A stretch of DNA of 53,830 nucleotides from Parcubacteria group bacterium RIFCSPLOWO2_01_FULL_48_18 (GTDB lineage: Bacteria; Patescibacteriota; Minisyncoccia; UBA6257; WO2-01-48-18): NCBI GenBank assembly GCA_001824435.1, contig MHXH01000004.1, positions 2,840 through 56,669 of the forward strand. The letters are read 5' to 3'. Positions 33,825 to 39,385 of this stretch are shown in pieces. The position numbers and the translations under genes are program-made. Within the stretch, counting starts at the first letter, position 1, and every line of letters starts with the position of its first letter. Below the pieces are notes generated by a model that worked only from the letters and a program-made list of their open reading frames with translations, was not told the DNA's origin and searched no databases.

Positions 33825-33903
33825 TGGTGCTGTATTCTGAAATTAGTCCGAACCCATTTTGGCGGGCGGGCGAGCTCTGAAAAAAATCCGAAGCCGTTGG
33901 GAT
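33825..33903. repeat. Cassette C, left terminal inverted repeat (79 bp)
   Basis: Identical, base for base, to the complement of 34850-34928. It starts with TGGTGCTG at the outer edge and ends ...GCCGTTGGGAT inside. The two copies bound a 1104-bp cassette. Confidence 0.93.
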
Positions 33904-33922
33904 GACAATTTCAAGTTTTTCT

Positions 33923-33987
33923 AATGAGTTAATAATAACTCATTTCAAAGCATTTTTCAATTTGAAATTGATTGAAAAATGCTTTGA
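33923..33987. repeat. Two adjacent strong hairpins inside cassette C
   Basis: AATGAGTTA/TAACTCATT (33923-33944) and a perfect 16-bp stem TCAAAGCATTTTTCAA with its complement (33945-33987, 11-base loop) directly follow the left repeat. They could block read-through or form folded single-stranded ends. Confidence 0.6.
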
Positions 33988-34023
33988 TTGGCGGCAAATT
34001 CTTTTAGCTCTTTGAATTAATAA

Positions 34024-34056
34024 AGAAAAAGGGTGGAGCTCTTTCGAACTCCACCC
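34024..34056 (-). terminator. Terminator of the cassette C gene
   Basis: On the minus strand GGGTGGAG and CTCCACCC pair, followed by CTTTTTCTTTA. Located just after the cassette C gene. Confidence 0.75.
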
Positions 34057-34072
34057 AACTGCGATGACCCTA

Positions 34073-34630
34073 TTAGGTCCGAACACGCTCATTGTCGGGA
34101 ATGGGCATCCGCGGGACGGCAGAATCGTGCAGATATACCGGACCCTTGCTCAGTGCACGCTCCAGTTTCTGGCGCAACACCCCTGGTCGGCCGTCGACGT
34201 GCCGATTCTTGCCTCGACCAGCTCTACCTTCCAAATGATCAAGTACATCGAGAAGCACGAAGTCTTTGTAGGTTCCTTCGCGACGATGCAACTCGATTGT
34301 CAACGTCCCGGCTTCGAGATCCTTCTCGAGTTTGACCCAGGCGTTGGCGCATCGTTCATGCTGTTCGGTCGGCGGAAGCTTTTCGCCTCTTCCCCATTTC
34401 AGCGTGATGGTTCGTTGAGCCGGGTGGACACGGACGAGTTCCTCAACCTCATTCAGGACAAGCGTTATCACGTCCTGAAAGAAGCCGAACGATTGAACTA
34501 TGTCTGCCCAAGGCCAGGAAGGATACTTTTCATTCCCTTGGTCGGCGGCGTTTTCTTTTGTGACCCTTTGGGTGAACACCATCAATCCACTGTGTTCCCA
34601 TTCGAAACGAACCTCGAGATTAGCACTCAT
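34073..34630 (-). CDS. Cassette C cargo gene, unknown
   Basis: 185 residues, soluble, with no recognised family. Visible features: a beta-rich N-part (NLEVRFEWEHSGLMVFTQRV), a WPWADIVQSFGFFQDVITLV segment, TITLKWGRG, and a basic C-terminal third (HLEGRAGRGKNRHVDGRPG). It has a strong ribosome site (AAGGAGGAG, 34635-34643), its own promoter, a structured leader and a terminator. It is the only complete gene between the 79-bp repeats. GC content and codon use look higher than in the flanking A+T-rich cassette ends. Confidence 0.7.
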   Translation of the reverse strand: MSANLEVRFEWEHSGLMVFTQRVTKENAADQGNEKYPSWPWADIVQSFGFFQDVITLVLNEVEELVRVHPAQRTITLKWGRGEKLPPTEQHERCANAWVKLEKDLEAGTLTIELHRREGTYKDFVLLDVLDHLEGRAGRGKNRHVDGRPGVLRQKLERALSKGPVYLHDSAVPRMPIPDNERVRT

Positions 34631-34654
34631 GACACTCCTCCTTGTCAGGGTTGT

Positions 34655-34706
34655 CTTCCATCCACATCGGGAGGATATCAGGATGGAAGTTCCAGCACTA
34701 TGCTGG
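34655..34706 (-). promoter_or_regulatory. Structured 5' leader of the cassette C gene
   Basis: Two hairpins in the transcript: CCAGCA/TGCTGG with a 3-base loop (34692-34706) and a 9-bp stem CTTCCATCC/GGATGGAAG (34655-34689), whose loop carries CCTCCC. That loop is complementary to the GGAGG of the ribosome site 12 bases further on, so a translation switch is conceivable. Confidence 0.5.
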
Positions 34707-34713
34707 ATATACT

Positions 34714-34742
34714 AATATACTTCTAAATTCATGGTCCGTCAA
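34714..34742 (-). promoter_or_regulatory. Promoter of the cassette C gene
   Basis: TTGACG (34737-34742) and TATATT (34714-34719) on the minus strand, 17-base spacer, giving a leader of about 75 nt. Confidence 0.65.
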
Positions 34743-34781
34743 TGCCAAACAAAAAACAGCCTAACGCTGTCTTAAAACCAA

Positions 34782-34830
34782 GATGAAAAATTTTCTTTTA
34801 CCAAAATGTGGTTCGAGCCGATATTTTTAC
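34782..34830 (-). pseudogene. Remnant of a serine recombinase 3' end in cassette C
   Basis: On the minus strand the codons read GSNHILVKENFSSWF then stop. The GSNHIL part is nearly identical at DNA level to the recombinase of the middle cassette (NIGSNHILRNRQW at 36403-36440), and 17 bases (34803-34819) match exactly in inverted orientation. The next 21 bases (34782-34802) match the inverted sequence at 35036-35056. This looks like the last codons of a related, otherwise lost recombinase. Confidence 0.5.
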
Positions 34831-34849
34831 AGGTTCTTTGGCAGTTTTT

Positions 34850-34928
34850 ATCCCAACGGCTTCGGATTTTTTTCAGAGCTCGCCCGCCCGCCAAAATGGG
34901 TTCGGACTAATTTCAGAATACAGCACCA
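34850..34928. repeat. Cassette C, right terminal inverted repeat (79 bp)
   Basis: Exact complement of 33825-33903. Its outer end ...CAGCACCA overlaps the first 5 bases of the left repeat of cassette A. On the minus strand it keeps an open frame in phase with the recombinase end encoded by the cassette A repeat. Confidence 0.93.
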
Positions 34929-35022
34929 CTTTGAAAATTGCAAGTTTTTAGACACAGGGCCGCCGCAGGCGGCCACCAAATCGTAAGGAATTTTGGGCTC
35001 CAAAACCCATTGGCGATTGCGT
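34924..35022. repeat. Cassette A, left terminal inverted repeat (99 bp)
   Basis: Exact complement of 36427-36525. It starts CACCACTTTG and contains a perfect GGCCGCC-GCA-GGCGGCC hairpin. The recombinase gene begins 43 bases inside. Confidence 0.93.
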
Positions 35023-35065
35023 CTTAAAATTTAAGGGTAAAAGAAAATTTTTCATCAAAAACCAT

Positions 35066-36706
35066 ATGAAATACATAATATACGCTCGCAAGAGCACGGA
35101 AGAAGATGACAGGCAAGTCTTAAGCATTGAAGCTCAACTGCATGAGCTAAAAGAATTTGCCGCCAAAGAAAAACTTGAAATTGTCGCCTCGCTGTGCGAG
35201 GCAAAAACTGCCAAAGAACCTGGGCGAATTAAATTCGCAGAAATGTTGGCATTACTCGAAAAAGGAAAAGCAGAAGGGATTATTTCGTGGCACCCGGACA
35301 GATTGGCACGCAATTCTGTAGATGGTGGAAAGATTATCCATTTTGTAGATCGCGGCTTGATTCGTTCCCTCAAATTTCCAACATTCTGGTTTGAACCAAC
35401 ACCACAAGGGTTATTTATGCTCAACATAGCTTTCGGACAATCAAAATATTTTGTAGATAATTTGCGAGAGAATGTGAAGCGCGGGCTACGCCAGAAAATA
35501 CGAAATGGCGTATGGCCCGGCTGGGCTCCGGTGGGTTATCTTAATAATTCAAAAACTAGAATGATAGATATTGACACAGTGAAAGCACTAAAAGTGAAAA
35601 AGCTTTTCACACTTTATGCCACCGGAAAATATCCACTTCATTCCCTCGCAAAATGGTCTGATAAAAATAACTTGCGTGGCAATCTCGGTAAAAAACTTGT
35701 TATCGCCAATATCCATAAAAATCTACAAAATATTTTCTACATTGGCCTCATGAAATACAAAGGCGAAGTATTTGAGGGAACTCACGAGCCGTTAATTTCA
35801 AAGAAACTTTTTGATAAATGCCAAGAGGTTATGGCGAAGCGTGGCAAAGTCCAGGAAGTGAGAAAACATCACTTTGCTTTTCTTGGTCTAATGAAATGTG
35901 CCTCTTGTAGTTGTTCAATTACCGGAGAGCGGCAAAAGGGGCATAACTATTATCGTTGCACCAAGAAAAAAGGTTTATGCCAAGAAAAGCGGTATCTACG
36001 GGAAGAAAGTTTGTTAGAACAGATCAATAACTTTCTACAAAAAGTTTCTTTGTCGAGCCAAGCAACGGAAAAAGTTTTAGCCGAACTGGATAAAGAAGAA
36101 ACACAAGCTAAAGAAGCAGCTAAAACTACTGTTCAAAATCTCAAAGAGCAAGTGAACCAACTGGAACAAAAATTGGATAAACTTTTGGATTTACATCTGA
36201 ACGATAAACTTTCCAGCGACGAGTATGCTCTCAAGAAACAAAAAATCCTAACAGCCAAGTTAGAACTTTCGGAGAAAATTACAGATTTTGAACAGAAAGG
36301 ATTGTCTTGGCTCGAACCGGCTCGTGAGTTTGTTTTGTCTTTAAACCAAGCCGCTAAATTGCTTGAGGCTCAAAAGAAAGAGGAAATGACAACATTTCTG
36401 AAAAACATTGGCTCGAACCACATTTTACGCAATCGCCAATGGGTTTTGGAGCCCAAAATTCCTTACGATTTGGTGGCCGCCTGCGGCGGCCCTGTGTCTA
36501 AAAACTTGCAATTTTCAAAGTGGTGGAATTATACAACTCTGCTCGAACCTATTTTAGCAAAAATCTCTGAAAAACGGAAGATTGCCGCTCGCTTCGTTCG
36601 CGGTATCCCCACCCCAGCGGCTCGCCGCCTGACGGCGGCCAAAGCCCGCAAAATTTCTTTTCATTTTTTAGAGGGCGCGCGCAAAAATCTTTTTCAAATA
36701 AAGTAA
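35066..36706 (+). CDS. Large serine site-specific recombinase
   Basis: 546 residues. The N-terminal resolvase domain has the catalytic serine in IYARKSTEEDDRQ (Ser10), then ISWHPDRLARNSVDGG with the conserved arginines. A recombinase domain (about 150-255, GLRQKIRNGVWPGWAPVGYL) is followed by a zinc ribbon (CASCSCSITGERQ ... YYRCTKKKGLC), a coiled-coil (about 330-410) and a C-terminal tail. Such enzymes cut and rejoin DNA through a Ser-phosphate at att sites. The last part is odd: codons from about residue 455 lie in the right inverted repeat of cassette A, and the final 60 residues (from WNYTTLLEPILAK) are encoded by the inverted repeat of cassette B. No SD is visible at the ATG. Confidence 0.92.
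   Translation: MKYIIYARKSTEEDDRQVLSIEAQLHELKEFAAKEKLEIVASLCEAKTAKEPGRIKFAEMLALLEKGKAEGIISWHPDRLARNSVDGGKIIHFVDRGLIRSLKFPTFWFEPTPQGLFMLNIAFGQSKYFVDNLRENVKRGLRQKIRNGVWPGWAPVGYLNNSKTRMIDIDTVKALKVKKLFTLYATGKYPLHSLAKWSDKNNLRGNLGKKLVIANIHKNLQNIFYIGLMKYKGEVFEGTHEPLISKKLFDKCQEVMAKRGKVQEVRKHHFAFLGLMKCASCSCSITGERQKGHNYYRCTKKKGLCQEKRYLREESLLEQINNFLQKVSLSSQATEKVLAELDKEETQAKEAAKTTVQNLKEQVNQLEQKLDKLLDLHLNDKLSSDEYALKKQKILTAKLELSEKITDFEQKGLSWLEPAREFVLSLNQAAKLLEAQKKEEMTTFLKNIGSNHILRNRQWVLEPKIPYDLVAACGGPVSKNLQFSKWWNYTTLLEPILAKISEKRKIAARFVRGIPTPAARRLTAAKARKISFHFLEGARKNLFQIK
36427..36525. repeat. Cassette A, right terminal inverted repeat (99 bp)
   Basis: Exact complement of 34924-35022. It lies wholly inside the recombinase coding sequence and overlaps the left repeat of cassette B by GTG (36523-36525). 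Confidence 0.93.
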
Positions 36707-36789
36707 GGAATGAAATTTTGCGGGCTTTGCTTCCTTGCTGACGCAAGGACGAGCCACTTCCCACCCCAACGCTCGGGCGGGGGCGAGTT
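36523..36789. repeat. Cassette B, left terminal inverted repeat (267 bp)
   Basis: Complement of 39119-39385 over the full 267 bases as far as read. It holds several small hairpins (GCCGCCTGACGGCGGC, TCCTTGCTGACGCAAGGA) and an internal pair AAAGCCCGCAAAATTTC / GAAATTTTGCGGGCTTT. It encodes the last 60 residues of the recombinase. Confidence 0.93.
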
Positions 36790-36811
36790 TTTGAAAAACA
36801 TATCAGGCTTT

Positions 36812-37546
36812 CTAAGAAGGGATTACGCCCCAAATAATTTCAAAAATCACTCTGAATGTCGCCACCAAATTTTTGTTTGTAATAAGAGTGCCAAAAACGG
36901 GTTCTTCAAGGGTCATGAGCACCACATTATCATTCCAAATAAGGAAATTGGTAGCTAATTCTTCATATTGTGATGGTAAAAGTTTATAGTTATACAAAGA
37001 ACCCATTATAGCTCTTGTATCTTTAGCCGTCTTTTCGCCCGAAGGGTGAGATAAGATATCTTGGAACATAATATTGCGGTGTTTCATGAGTTTTGTATAA
37101 GAGGTAAAAAATTTCGGATCAAGCTCAAAAAGTTTTTTTGTTGAAGCAATGCCCAAAATTTCTTCTGCCTCGAGCATTTGCATAAAAATCTCTTTGATCT
37201 GTTCTGTGCCTTCAAAAAACCGTATACTCGGTTTGTTTTTCTGAATTTTATGGAGTGCCCGAAGGTCGGGAAGGAGCTGTTCCACAATTTCCCTGCGGCG
37301 TTCAAGCGTGCGTAAAAGCGCAGCCGGATCGGTGGGTAAGTACACGAAACGCTTTCGTTTCTTATGCTGCTCAATAAGTCCTTTTTCCTCAAGTGCCCTC
37401 ACAATGTGGTAGGTATTTGTGCGGGCGATTTTAGTGCTTTTGGCTATCTGCGGCGGCGTTGAAACGCCGTTTTCTAAAAGGTAAAGGTAAACCTTAATCT
37501 CGGAGCCCTTGAGACCTATATTTTTTAATCCCTCATCAAGTTTCAT
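36812..37546 (-). CDS. TrmB-family transcriptional regulator
   Basis: 244 residues. The N-terminal winged-helix domain matches TrmB (EIKVYLYLLENGVSTPPQIA, KIARTNTYHIVRALEEKGLI), then a coiled-coil linker (LRTLERRREIVEQLLPDL) and a C-terminal effector-like region (IRFFEGTEQIKEIFMQML, ILGIASTKKLFEL). TrmB-type regulators respond to sugars or other small ligands in archaea and some bacteria. It is in cassette B and divergent from the next gene. AATGTCAAT occurs twice in the spacer, around its likely -10, and may be an operator. Confidence 0.87.
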   Translation of the reverse strand: MKLDEGLKNIGLKGSEIKVYLYLLENGVSTPPQIAKSTKIARTNTYHIVRALEEKGLIEQHKKRKRFVYLPTDPAALLRTLERRREIVEQLLPDLRALHKIQKNKPSIRFFEGTEQIKEIFMQMLEAEEILGIASTKKLFELDPKFFTSYTKLMKHRNIMFQDILSHPSGEKTAKDTRAIMGSLYNYKLLPSQYEELATNFLIWNDNVVLMTLEEPVFGTLITNKNLVATFRVIFEIIWGVIPS

Positions 37547-37552
37547 AGATAC

Positions 37553-37606
37553 AATGTCAATGTTTATTATATCATTTTAGCAAGTAAACTACTTAATGTC
37601 AATACA
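37553..37606. promoter_or_regulatory. Possible operator/promoter of the TrmB-type regulator
   Basis: The gap holds a minus-strand TATAAT about 20 bases before the regulator start and two copies of AATGTCAAT, one on each side of it. Repeats around a promoter suggest self-control; inferred only. Confidence 0.35.
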
Positions 37607-37633
37607 ACAGGATATTTTTCAACATAGTCATAC

Positions 37634-37662
37634 TTGATGTTCTATAGATATTAGAGTATAAT
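37634..37662 (+). promoter_or_regulatory. Promoter of the gene at 37722
   Basis: TTGATG (37634-37639) and TATAAT (37657-37662), 17-base spacer. Confidence 0.75.
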
Positions 37663-37721
37663 GTGGGCAGAACACTGAAAATCCATCATCCAACAAAAGC
37701 GCGAAGGCGCGGGAGGAAACA

Positions 37722-38102
37722 ATGATAAAGCCATTCTCGGGGGCTAGTTATCTGGAGCGACTTGAGCGAGTCACTCTGGAGATCTGGCGAGCCATTCACA
37801 GAATGAATGATTCTGTGGGTGGTATCGCACAGATTGGCTCCAGCCAGGAGCTACTGACGATCTGTCTTAGTGGGACGGATTTGCAGCAACTGGCGGCTAC
37901 TACCGAACAGTTCCGGCAAGAAGTGCTGGAGTTGATCGAAAAGGAGGGTATATCTCTATCATTTCTTGTCTCGAAGCTTAACAACGGCCGAGAGAAAGAG
38001 GTGATGAAGGTTTATGCCACAAGGTTATCCGGTTGCGATGTGGATATTCCTTGGGCACTGCCCTTCTTGGTGGCAAACTTCGCCACCAGCCCCCAAACCT
38101 AG
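37722..38102 (+). CDS. Cassette B cargo gene 1, unknown
   Basis: 126 residues, soluble, mostly helical (LERVTLEIWRAIHRMNDSV, LQQLAATTEQFRQEVLELI). No family recognised. GGGAGGAAA gives a strong ribosome site 8 bases before the ATG, and a clear promoter and a hairpin terminator make it a stand-alone transcription unit in cassette B. Confidence 0.65.
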   Translation: MIKPFSGASYLERLERVTLEIWRAIHRMNDSVGGIAQIGSSQELLTICLSGTDLQQLAATTEQFRQEVLELIEKEGISLSFLVSKLNNGREKEVMKVYATRLSGCDVDIPWALPFLVANFATSPQT

Positions 38103-38127
38103 GTGATTGGGTAATCGCGGGGCCGAA

Positions 38128-38157
38128 GATCCCCGAACCCAGGTGGTTCGGGGATCT
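38128..38157 (+). terminator. Hairpin after cassette B gene 1
   Basis: GATCCCCGAACC and GGTTCGGGGATC pair perfectly over 12 bases with a 5-base loop, followed by TCATTAATCTT. Probably a terminator although the T-run is poor. Confidence 0.6.
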
Positions 38158-38166
38158 CATTAATCT

Positions 38167-38172
38167 TATAAT
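38167..38172 (+). promoter_or_regulatory. -10 box placed for a leaderless mRNA
   Basis: TATAAT lies 6 bases before the ATG at 38179; transcription would start at or near the start codon. A -35 is weak (TGGTTC at 17 bases). Confidence 0.6.
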
Positions 38173-38178
38173 GTAAAC

Positions 38179-38493
38179 ATGAGTACTTTTGAGGAGTTGC
38201 CAAAAAATATTGGTGTCGGCGAACAAATTGAGCCAATAGAAGAAATTGAAAAAGAGTTAACCTCGGAAGATTTAGATAAAGTGATGCAGAAAGTTAAAGA
38301 TATAGACGAAAGAGGAACAGCATACACAGCCCTTGATAAAATATTAAGGCGTTCAGAATCAGAATCTTCAGCAGAATTAGACCGCGATGCGCTAACAAGC
38401 ATTCTTAAAGACGGTGTTTTGGGAACATCAACTTCGCCGGATTATCATGCAAGAGTAGAGAAATTAGCAAGAAAAGATGGGCTGAAAGCGTGA
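38179..38493 (+). CDS. Cassette B cargo gene 2, unknown (first of an overlapping pair)
   Basis: 104 residues, acidic and helical (EPIEEIEKELTSEDLDKVMQ, ALDKILRRSESESSAELDRD). No family recognised. It ends inside the first codons of the next gene (GTGA overlap), so the two are translationally coupled. The pair has a two-gene module layout, or could be one gene broken by a single-base frameshift: the end LTSILKDGVLGTS and the next protein's GAVYFNIVGR would read as one continuous domain. Confidence 0.6.
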   Translation: MSTFEELPKNIGVGEQIEPIEEIEKELTSEDLDKVMQKVKDIDERGTAYTALDKILRRSESESSAELDRDALTSILKDGVLGTSTSPDYHARVEKLARKDGLKA

Positions 38494-39089
38494 GAAAACA
38501 CAAGAGAGGCGCTGTGTATTTTAATATTGTCGGAAGGGCAAGTAGTAATGATTGGAGATTTGAAGAAGGCACTACGCAAATTGATTGGTCGGGTTATTCG
38601 GGTGGACATGACACAAGCGGGAAAAGAGTCGAAACAATAACTTTGATATTTGATCTCTCGCCCTTTAAAGAGAAAGAACCGAGACGTGCATATGCTGAAG
38701 TGAGTGAAAGATCAAAGGAGTACAGAATAGACGATCCGCAAGCGGCGGCTGCTTGGCAGGGGCTTCAAAAGGGACGAGAGACCACCGAAGAATTAAAAGA
38801 AATAGGACTAATGAACGAAAAAAGTGAGCTACTTGCAGATACCGAGTATGGATTTGTGCTTTCGTATCGTGTTGCCCCGCGGCTTTTCGGGGGAATTGTT
38901 GTAAGACCTTCATCGGAAGACCCAGAAGTTGTAGTAAAGCGAGTTCACGAAATCGCCTCTTTGATGCTCGAGGCATACCGGGATAAAAAAGCCCCACTGG
39001 TACCCATATATGACTCTAAAGGTAATCTGTTGTGGCCTAAGAGTTTGGCGTATAAAGATGTAAAAGAACTTATCGCACAAAAAGAATAA
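38490..39089 (+). CDS. Cassette B cargo gene 3, unknown (second of an overlapping pair)
   Basis: 199 residues with GTG start at 38490 overlapping the stop of gene 2. Recognisable stretches are GAVYFNIVGRASSNDWRF, ETITLIFDLSPF and LSYRVAPRLFGGIVVRP; a 'VYFN ... Y.V.PR.F.GIV' layout is seen in some small enzymes with an ADP-ribosyltransferase-like or related fold, but no catalytic motif can be named. Function unknown. It ends 29 bases before the right repeat of cassette B. Confidence 0.6.
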   Translation: MRKHKRGAVYFNIVGRASSNDWRFEEGTTQIDWSGYSGGHDTSGKRVETITLIFDLSPFKEKEPRRAYAEVSERSKEYRIDDPQAAAAWQGLQKGRETTEELKEIGLMNEKSELLADTEYGFVLSYRVAPRLFGGIVVRPSSEDPEVVVKRVHEIASLMLEAYRDKKAPLVPIYDSKGNLLWPKSLAYKDVKELIAQKE

Positions 39090-39118
39090 TATAATTGATC
39101 TTATTTGAAACAATATAT

Positions 39119-39385
39119 AACTCGCCCCCGCCCGAGCGTTGGGGTGGGAAGTGGCTCGTCCTTGCGTCAGCAAGGAAGCAAAGCCCGCAAAATTTCATTC
39201 CTTACTTTATTTGAAAAAGATTTTTGCGCGCGCCCTCTAAAAAATGAAAAGAAATTTTGCGGGCTTTGGCCGCCGTCAGGCGGCGAGCCGCTGGGGTGGG
39301 GATACCGCGAACGAAGCGAGCGGCAATCTTCCGTTTTTCAGAGATTTTTGCTAAAATAGGTTCGAGCAGAGTTGTATAATTCCAC
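39119..39385. repeat. Cassette B, right terminal inverted repeat (267 bp)
   Basis: Complement of 36523-36789. Its outer end AATTCCAC is followed by ACCAATCC, so CACCA is again at the edge (39385-39389). The stretch between cargo gene 3 and the next methyltransferase (39090-39423) holds this repeat and nothing else. Confidence 0.93.

Follow-up and report, generated by a model that had tools for sequence, protein, structure and literature searches.

Genes and repeats at the locus

The stretch of DNA analyzed here, which we call the window, covers 53,830 nucleotides of Parcubacteria group bacterium RIFCSPLOWO2_01_FULL_48_18 (contig MHXH01000004.1, positions 2,840-56,669), and all coordinates given below are window positions. 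Three segments lie side by side in it, each closed by a pair of inverted arms: C (33825-34928), A (34924-36525), and B (36523-39385). The C arms (33825-33908 and 34845-34928) are 84 nt long and 98% identical, the A arms (34924-35022 and 36427-36525) are 99 nt long and 100% complementary, and the B arms (36523-36789 and 39119-39385) are 267 nt long and 100% identical; perfect inverted repeats of 99 and 267 nt are not a product of chance. At their junctions, neighboring arms have in common a TGGTG core, which is the reverse complement of the tRNA 3′ sequence CACCA. The four window junctions are O1>C, C<A, A>B, and B<O2, the outer two being attR-like and the inner two attP-like.

Segment A contains the open reading frame of a large serine recombinase, or integrase, on the plus strand (35066-36706, 546 codons), lying between the left A arm (34924-35022, plus strand, complementary to 36427-36525) and the right A arm, and this arrangement of arm, recombinase, and arm is found again in dozens of homologues. 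Segment C is a cargo module, and its arms are of the type that we call P. The left P arm (33825-33908, plus strand) forms an attR-like junction with the outer flank, with the core TGGTG at 33825-33829 and the dinucleotide GT at 33827-33828, while the right P arm (34845-34928, minus strand) meets the left A arm at an internal attP-like junction whose minus-strand core lies at 34924-34928. Module C holds a candidate cargo ORF on the minus strand (34073-34630, 185 aa, no Pfam match) together with short copies of recombinase-gene sequence, also on the minus strand: on the cargo 3′ side, a copy of approximately codons 36-41 adjoins the left P arm (33904-33921), and on the 5′ side there are copies of codons 47-53, codons 446-454, and the recombinase leader (34781-34849). 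The copy on the 3′ side is split by palindromic inserts at 33920-33985, which is not the case in most homologues. Module B has arms of a second type, P2: the left one (36523-36789, plus strand) is joined to the right A arm and carries the motif CGAAC at attP-like spacing, and the right one (39119-39385, minus strand) forms an attR-like junction with the right outer flank, its dinucleotide (AC on the plus strand) lying at 39384-39385. The module encodes a TrmB-like regulator on the minus strand (36812-37546) and three plus-strand ORFs without a Pfam match (37722-38102, 38179-38493, and 38490-39089).

The recombinase reads through its own crossover

By Pfam, the recombinase has Resolvase, Recombinase, and Zn_ribbon_recom domains, that is, a catalytic domain followed by the recombinase and zinc-ribbon domains of a serine integrase. 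A profile built from 45 homologues matches the A118 integrase in the PDB, and the AlphaFold model of the protein matches several solved serine integrases with strong E-values and low global TM-scores, the latter being expected if the domain arrangement differs. Model confidence is below 50 from residue 466 onward, so the tail of the protein lies outside the predicted fold.

That tail is where the gene and the repeats meet. The right A arm (36427-36525, plus strand) codes for approximately codons 455-486 and ends at the core, and the reading frame passes from it through the crossover core, where the Trp486 codon occupies 36521-36523, into the B arm. An earlier note, made from the letters of the window alone, had the frame spanning the whole right A repeat and then about 180 nt of the B repeat before ending in WWNYTTLLEPILAK...FQIK, which proved correct to the base. 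It had also read the minus strand from the left A arm into the right C arm in the same frame, and there too the frame is kept, giving QFSKWCCILKLVRTHFGGRASSEKNPKPLG (FSKWCCILKLVRTHFGGRASSEKNPKPLG) with its stop at the edge of the C arm. Conservation of synonymous sites is unusually high across codons 454-486, with 0.98 bits against a baseline of 0.42, a value reached by 0 of 347 windows compared, and likewise across codons 29-41, with 1.01 bits, a value reached by 15 of 367.

Most homologues end in antisense tRNA

The species-level genome set contains 408 candidate relatives, and a genome-set search gave 80 loci, mostly from Patescibacteria MAGs; a few carry other labels, for example Spirochaetia, Omnitrophota, and Latescibacterota, which may reflect binning errors or transfer. 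Close homologues were present in 13 of the 93 sampled genomes of the class. IMG/VR contributed two partial homologues, and plasmids and phages only distant integrases. Similarity among the homologues covers approximately residues 1-486, and beyond that point the proteins have unrelated tails such as WCPGRDSNPHALASTGPQPVAYT, which are antisense tRNA. The proposal in the earlier note that the C-terminus is encoded across the repeat and differs with the neighbor thus holds among homologues, in which the core is conserved and the tails vary.

Orientation and neighbors were counted in assemblies for the 79 recombinases, again mostly from Patescibacteria MAGs, whose 3′ end lies on the contig. A tRNA gene on the opposite strand adjoins the 3′ end in 63 of the 79, and in 48 the CCA of the tRNA 3′ end is exactly the Trp codon (count from the table). 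Most of the recombinases without a tRNA gene run into a tRNA-like remnant or a P2 arm; in the window and in loci L010 and L018 it is a P2 arm, not a tRNA, that adjoins the recombinase, forming hybrid junctions. The isotypes targeted include Leu, Arg, Ser, Ala, Tyr, Phe, Glu, Lys, Gly, Val, Ile, Gln, Asn, and Met, and the two members differ in isotype in 114 of 172 recombinase pairs with at least 80% identity. Different elements, then, have entered different tRNA genes, from which point the frame runs on into antisense tRNA; this, together with the few hybrid junctions, accounts for the varied tails, and it also explains why some recombinase proteins end in peptides such as GRDSNPHA.

Several smaller features were seen among these loci. 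One contig, at L142 (G457), carries two elements of the family with about 4.4 kb between them, and a pair is also seen at L025. In L007, L009, L012, L014, L015, L033, L056, and L058 the A arm is a mosaic: its inner part agrees between attL and the internal copy but its outer bases do not, which hints that elements have exchanged sequence. In L043, part of the target tRNA 3′ end occurs a second time in the D flank at attR and may be the scar of an earlier integration, and at L013:6543 a P2-like half-site (TGGTGCAATTG...CTCGGACCTATTTT) starts at the 5′ end of a tRNA-Leu, on the side away from the element.

Attachment sites and an empty site

The elements follow the order flank D, P arm, cargo, P arm, A arm, recombinase, A arm, antisense tRNA, and are typically about 2.5-3.1 kb long in the homologues; both P arms were located in 48 of them, the window included. 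One integrated end, attR, consists of the outer flank and a P arm, and the other, attL, of an A arm and the tRNA 3′ end, meeting at a GT or GC dinucleotide. The match between attR and the internal junction begins at the central dinucleotide in 15 of 27 elements and at or before it in 23 of 27, and the right A arm meets the tRNA at the same central dinucleotide. Situated between the cargo gene and the recombinase gene, which point away from each other, the inner P<A junction reads as the parental attP would be expected to read, but in the opposite orientation. These integrated junctions, together with one empty site described below, are consistent with attP x attB recombination yielding an attL and an attR that would share just the central dinucleotide.

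The core reads TGGT in 28 of 33 cases and TGGC in 5 of 33, which on the other strand reads as the discriminator base and C74. In a described large serine integrase, the zinc-ribbon motif occupies half-site positions 16-24 in attP and 11-19 in attB, a shift of 5 bp (PMC3783163). The same 5-bp shift is seen here: CGAAC occupies +21 to +25 in the P arm, and in the tRNA it lies at +16 to +20 and corresponds to the T-loop region read antisense. Almost no bases are conserved on the D side of the target, and from this and the CGAAC positions target choice probably rests on the CCA end and the T-arm.

An empty site was sought by joining the two flanks of the element in G464 at the dinucleotide, giving 662 nt, a sequence that in G464 itself is interrupted by the element. 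The joined flanks align unbroken to G473, a sister species in the same genus (positions 1-656, 78% identity), and C and A were accordingly integrated as one unit. This bears on the reading of C, A, and B as three independent terminal-inverted-repeat transposons that happen to be adjacent. Each segment does have its own inverted ends, but the core sits at a fixed dinucleotide common to the adjoining ends, C and A occur together and in the same order in dozens of loci, the sole recombinase belongs to the serine integrases, and C and A, to judge from the empty site, go in together; we give that reading next to no credence.

The locus is very probably an integrated small mobile element driven by a tRNA-targeting large serine integrase whose reading frame crosses the crossover. 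The recombinase tail comes from the target, usually as antisense tRNA and in the window from module B, the P2 arm of a second type of element having taken the place of the tRNA half. On excision, the far P arm would follow the right A arm and give a different tail, so that integration would swap the C-terminus. The target would be chosen by its CCA end and T-arm, and the discriminator base would set the dinucleotide. Supporting this reading are the antisense tRNA neighbors of 63 of 79 recombinases, the table of core letters, the CGAAC shift, the G473 empty site, the integrase domains and structures, the mixture of isotypes, and the open frame of the P arm. Counting against it are the lack of codon-position constraint in the distal circle tail (see below), the failure to identify a directionality factor, the use of only one of the two A>P junctions for integration, and a window copy that has neither a tRNA nor a close relative.

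Cargo modules

The cargo module usually contains one main ORF, divergent from the recombinase. Matches among 40 scanned cargo ORFs include a Na/Ca exchanger, a sodium:solute symporter, SAICAR synthetase, NAD(P)H-hydrate dehydratase, three methyltransferases, dihydroorotate dehydrogenase, DUF218, a nucleoside deoxyribosyltransferase-like protein, RDD, HAD hydrolase, HisG, and DKNYY, with no replication gene recognized among the 40. When the cargo was compared all against all, six grouped in a single cluster and a few pairs formed besides. On either side of the cargo lie short copies of recombinase-gene sequence that hardly vary, with codons 29-41 on the 3′ side and codons 47-53, codons 446-454, and the leader on the 5′ side. 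Two of the copies are closer to the recombinase of their own element than to those of others (0.94 versus 0.91 and 0.95 versus 0.88; permutation p 0.0005). One guess is that they are additional binding sites for the integrase.

The tail in the integrated element and in the predicted circle

The integrated element supplies no stop codon of its own, and the frame exits through the crossover and ends where the target permits. If the excised element closes into a circle, with the right A arm joined to the left P arm, the recombinase frame would continue as WCSILELVRTHF; the predicted circle tail in the window lies at 33825-33905 on the plus strand and reads WCCILKLVRTHFGGRASSEKNPKPLG, followed by TGA at 33903-33905. 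Across the family, the circle form would gain a tail of about 20-44 residues from the P arm. In most elements the stop of the circle tail is T(G/A)A, to which the arm contributes its last base and the adjoining recombinase copy its first two, and it is in frame in 46 of 57 elements once duplicate and spurious rows are removed. That the frame crosses the crossover is solid, a free-form tail is likely, and the minus-strand tail of the earlier note, which is real as sequence, is most likely used in the excised circle and not through inversion.

What the tail does is a separate matter. It is evenly balanced whether the overlap is a passive by-product, in which the end of the gene merely coincides with the attachment site and neither the free nor the integrated tail is functional. 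The integrated tails are arbitrary in sequence and length, the tail lies beyond the predicted fold, and in the circle tail beyond the half-site the three codon positions vary about equally (1449:1745:1664), so that the codon-position test gives no protein-level constraint on the distal part. Within the half-site the positions are unequal (2257:1106:2941), which DNA binding, constraining the same bases, could itself cause. Against a by-product, the frame reaches the arm-edge stop in most elements and arm lengths are often multiples of three, an argument weakened by shared ancestry: 11 of 18 distinct lengths are such multiples (approximately 0.015 under an expectation of one third, with shared ancestry ignored), which is suggestive only as a sign of frame keeping. 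Another reading, which we regard as speculative and rather unlikely, is that integration edits the integrase. The free circle would make the P-arm-tailed form, which would integrate at tRNA genes with a matching discriminator base; the tail swap would then alter direction or stability and so replace a directionality factor, cargo between the P arms would be swapped gene by gene, and the whole would be a self-contained gene carrier of Patescibacteria. No candidate for a recombination directionality factor was identified.

Inversion

The earlier note had proposed that inverting cassette A would swap one tail for the other, as a shufflon does, and this part of it is not supported: in the assemblies, none of the 79 recombinases is inverted or reads into its own P arm. 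Cargo modules likewise have a constant orientation in the elements with both edges scorable, and the two results together argue against an inversion switch. A shufflon-like switch, in which the integrase inverts cassette A (or possibly C or B) and so alternates its own C-terminal tail, is in our judgment very unlikely. Inverted arms with a common core stand at each end and the frame is open both ways, so that inversion of the recombinase cassette is possible by sequence, yet it has left no trace among the homologues; orientation is uniform, the tails of homologues are explained by their tRNA targets, and serine integrases normally need a factor to recombine other pairings of sites (PMC3783163).

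The same counts bear on a circle resembling the two-micron plasmid, in which inverted crossover sites flip the halves of the circle and drive copy-number amplification. The predicted circle does consist of two unique segments between two long inverted repeats with a crossover site in each, and the arms are nearly identical within an element (median 99%, against 65% between elements). However, if the circle flipped and could integrate through either site, both orientations would be expected next to the tRNA, and only one is seen; in addition, the scanned cargo lacks a recognized replication gene; we hold this to be highly improbable. Equal use of the two A>P junctions of the circle predicts that the recombinase start would lie beside the tRNA in about half of the elements, and it does so in none. 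We can only guess that the inner junction is masked by transcription or by bound integrase. Patterns for inverted or circle junctions were found in none of 380 genomes of the phylum nor in IMG/VR, searches that carry little weight, as the normal-form control matched only 1 of 380. One contig, L022, was considered as a circle whose contig is the element and was rejected, its last base fitting a tRNA junction and not a P arm.

Relation to known systems

The large serine integrases of the A118/LI type (PDB 4kis; PMC3783163) resemble the present one in domain order, in the central dinucleotide, and in having the zinc-ribbon motif displaced by 5 bp in attP relative to attB. Here, in contrast, the 3′ ends of tRNAs of many isotypes are targeted, the gene runs through its own crossover, a second, inverted attP-like junction lies inside the element, and no directionality factor was found. 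In mycobacteriophage BPs the attachment site lies within an ORF and integration alters the C-terminus of the protein, the free form having approximately 33 extra residues; the gene concerned is the repressor, and its free form is degraded (PMC4557955). The present element would be like this integration-dependent immunity in having its attachment core inside an ORF whose C-terminus changes on integration, if the free form is as predicted, but the gene is the integrase itself and any effect of the tail is putative.

Shufflons and other multiple-inversion systems likewise have inverted crossover sites beside an ORF with alternative C-terminal tails, whereas here no inverted form was seen (0 of 79), the enzyme is a large serine integrase and not an Rci-type tyrosine recombinase, and the tails come from integration targets. 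Like integron gene cassettes, the elements place cargo genes of unrelated function, one at a time, in a shared framework for recombination; the present system differs in having a serine recombinase instead of an IntI-type tyrosine recombinase, A and P arms instead of attC sites, a recombinase in each element, cargo enclosed by inverted P arms and by fragments of the recombinase gene, and integration at tRNA genes.

Already known, then, are the recombinase family and an attachment site inside a gene (the BPs repressor, PMC4557955). We found no description of this element in the literature searched, which covered few subscription papers, nor in it the combination of an integrase gene crossing its own crossover, a serine integrase that targets the tRNA T-arm, an attP-like junction duplicated in inverted orientation, and a single variable cargo. 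This mobile element is compact and appears to be common among Patescibacteria, and it carries genes singly, some of them annotated as biosynthetic (SAICAR synthetase, dihydroorotate dehydrogenase, HisG). Its integrase family appears to read two universal features of tRNA, the CCA end and the T-arm, which would let similar enzymes serve many tRNA genes, and the overlap of gene and crossover makes integration-dependent control of an integrase directly testable.

The window copy, module B, and the source genome

The junctions of the window element have no tRNA gene, and an empty site was sought for it with no other genome of the genus and no syntenic relative to be found. In the B arm, CGAAC sits at the attP-like spacing (+20), and the arm resembles those that adjoin A in L010 and L018. 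In L018 the P2 arm is part of a module beyond which a second serine recombinase begins, and another P2 half-site is present elsewhere in the source genome. A simple history for the window copy would be recombination of the attL of the element with an attP-type site of a second element. The possibility that B is a decayed copy of the element itself was rejected, there being no convincing recombinase fragment within it.

At L018:5702-6796 a second element abuts the first, comprising a P2 arm, a helix-turn-helix cargo gene, and, where the contig ends, the beginning of another serine recombinase. At the left edge of the window, a tRNA-Arg on the minus strand (3-77; L084, L106) adjoins a more divergent serine recombinase (48% identity, G000:C4:1524-2795), and for this reason looks like the attL of another element. 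More such recombinases or P half-sites occur on contigs C2, C20, C21, C24, C16, and C26 of the source genome G000 (L100-L107), and the position of several of them at contig ends suggests that the assembly breaks at these repeats.
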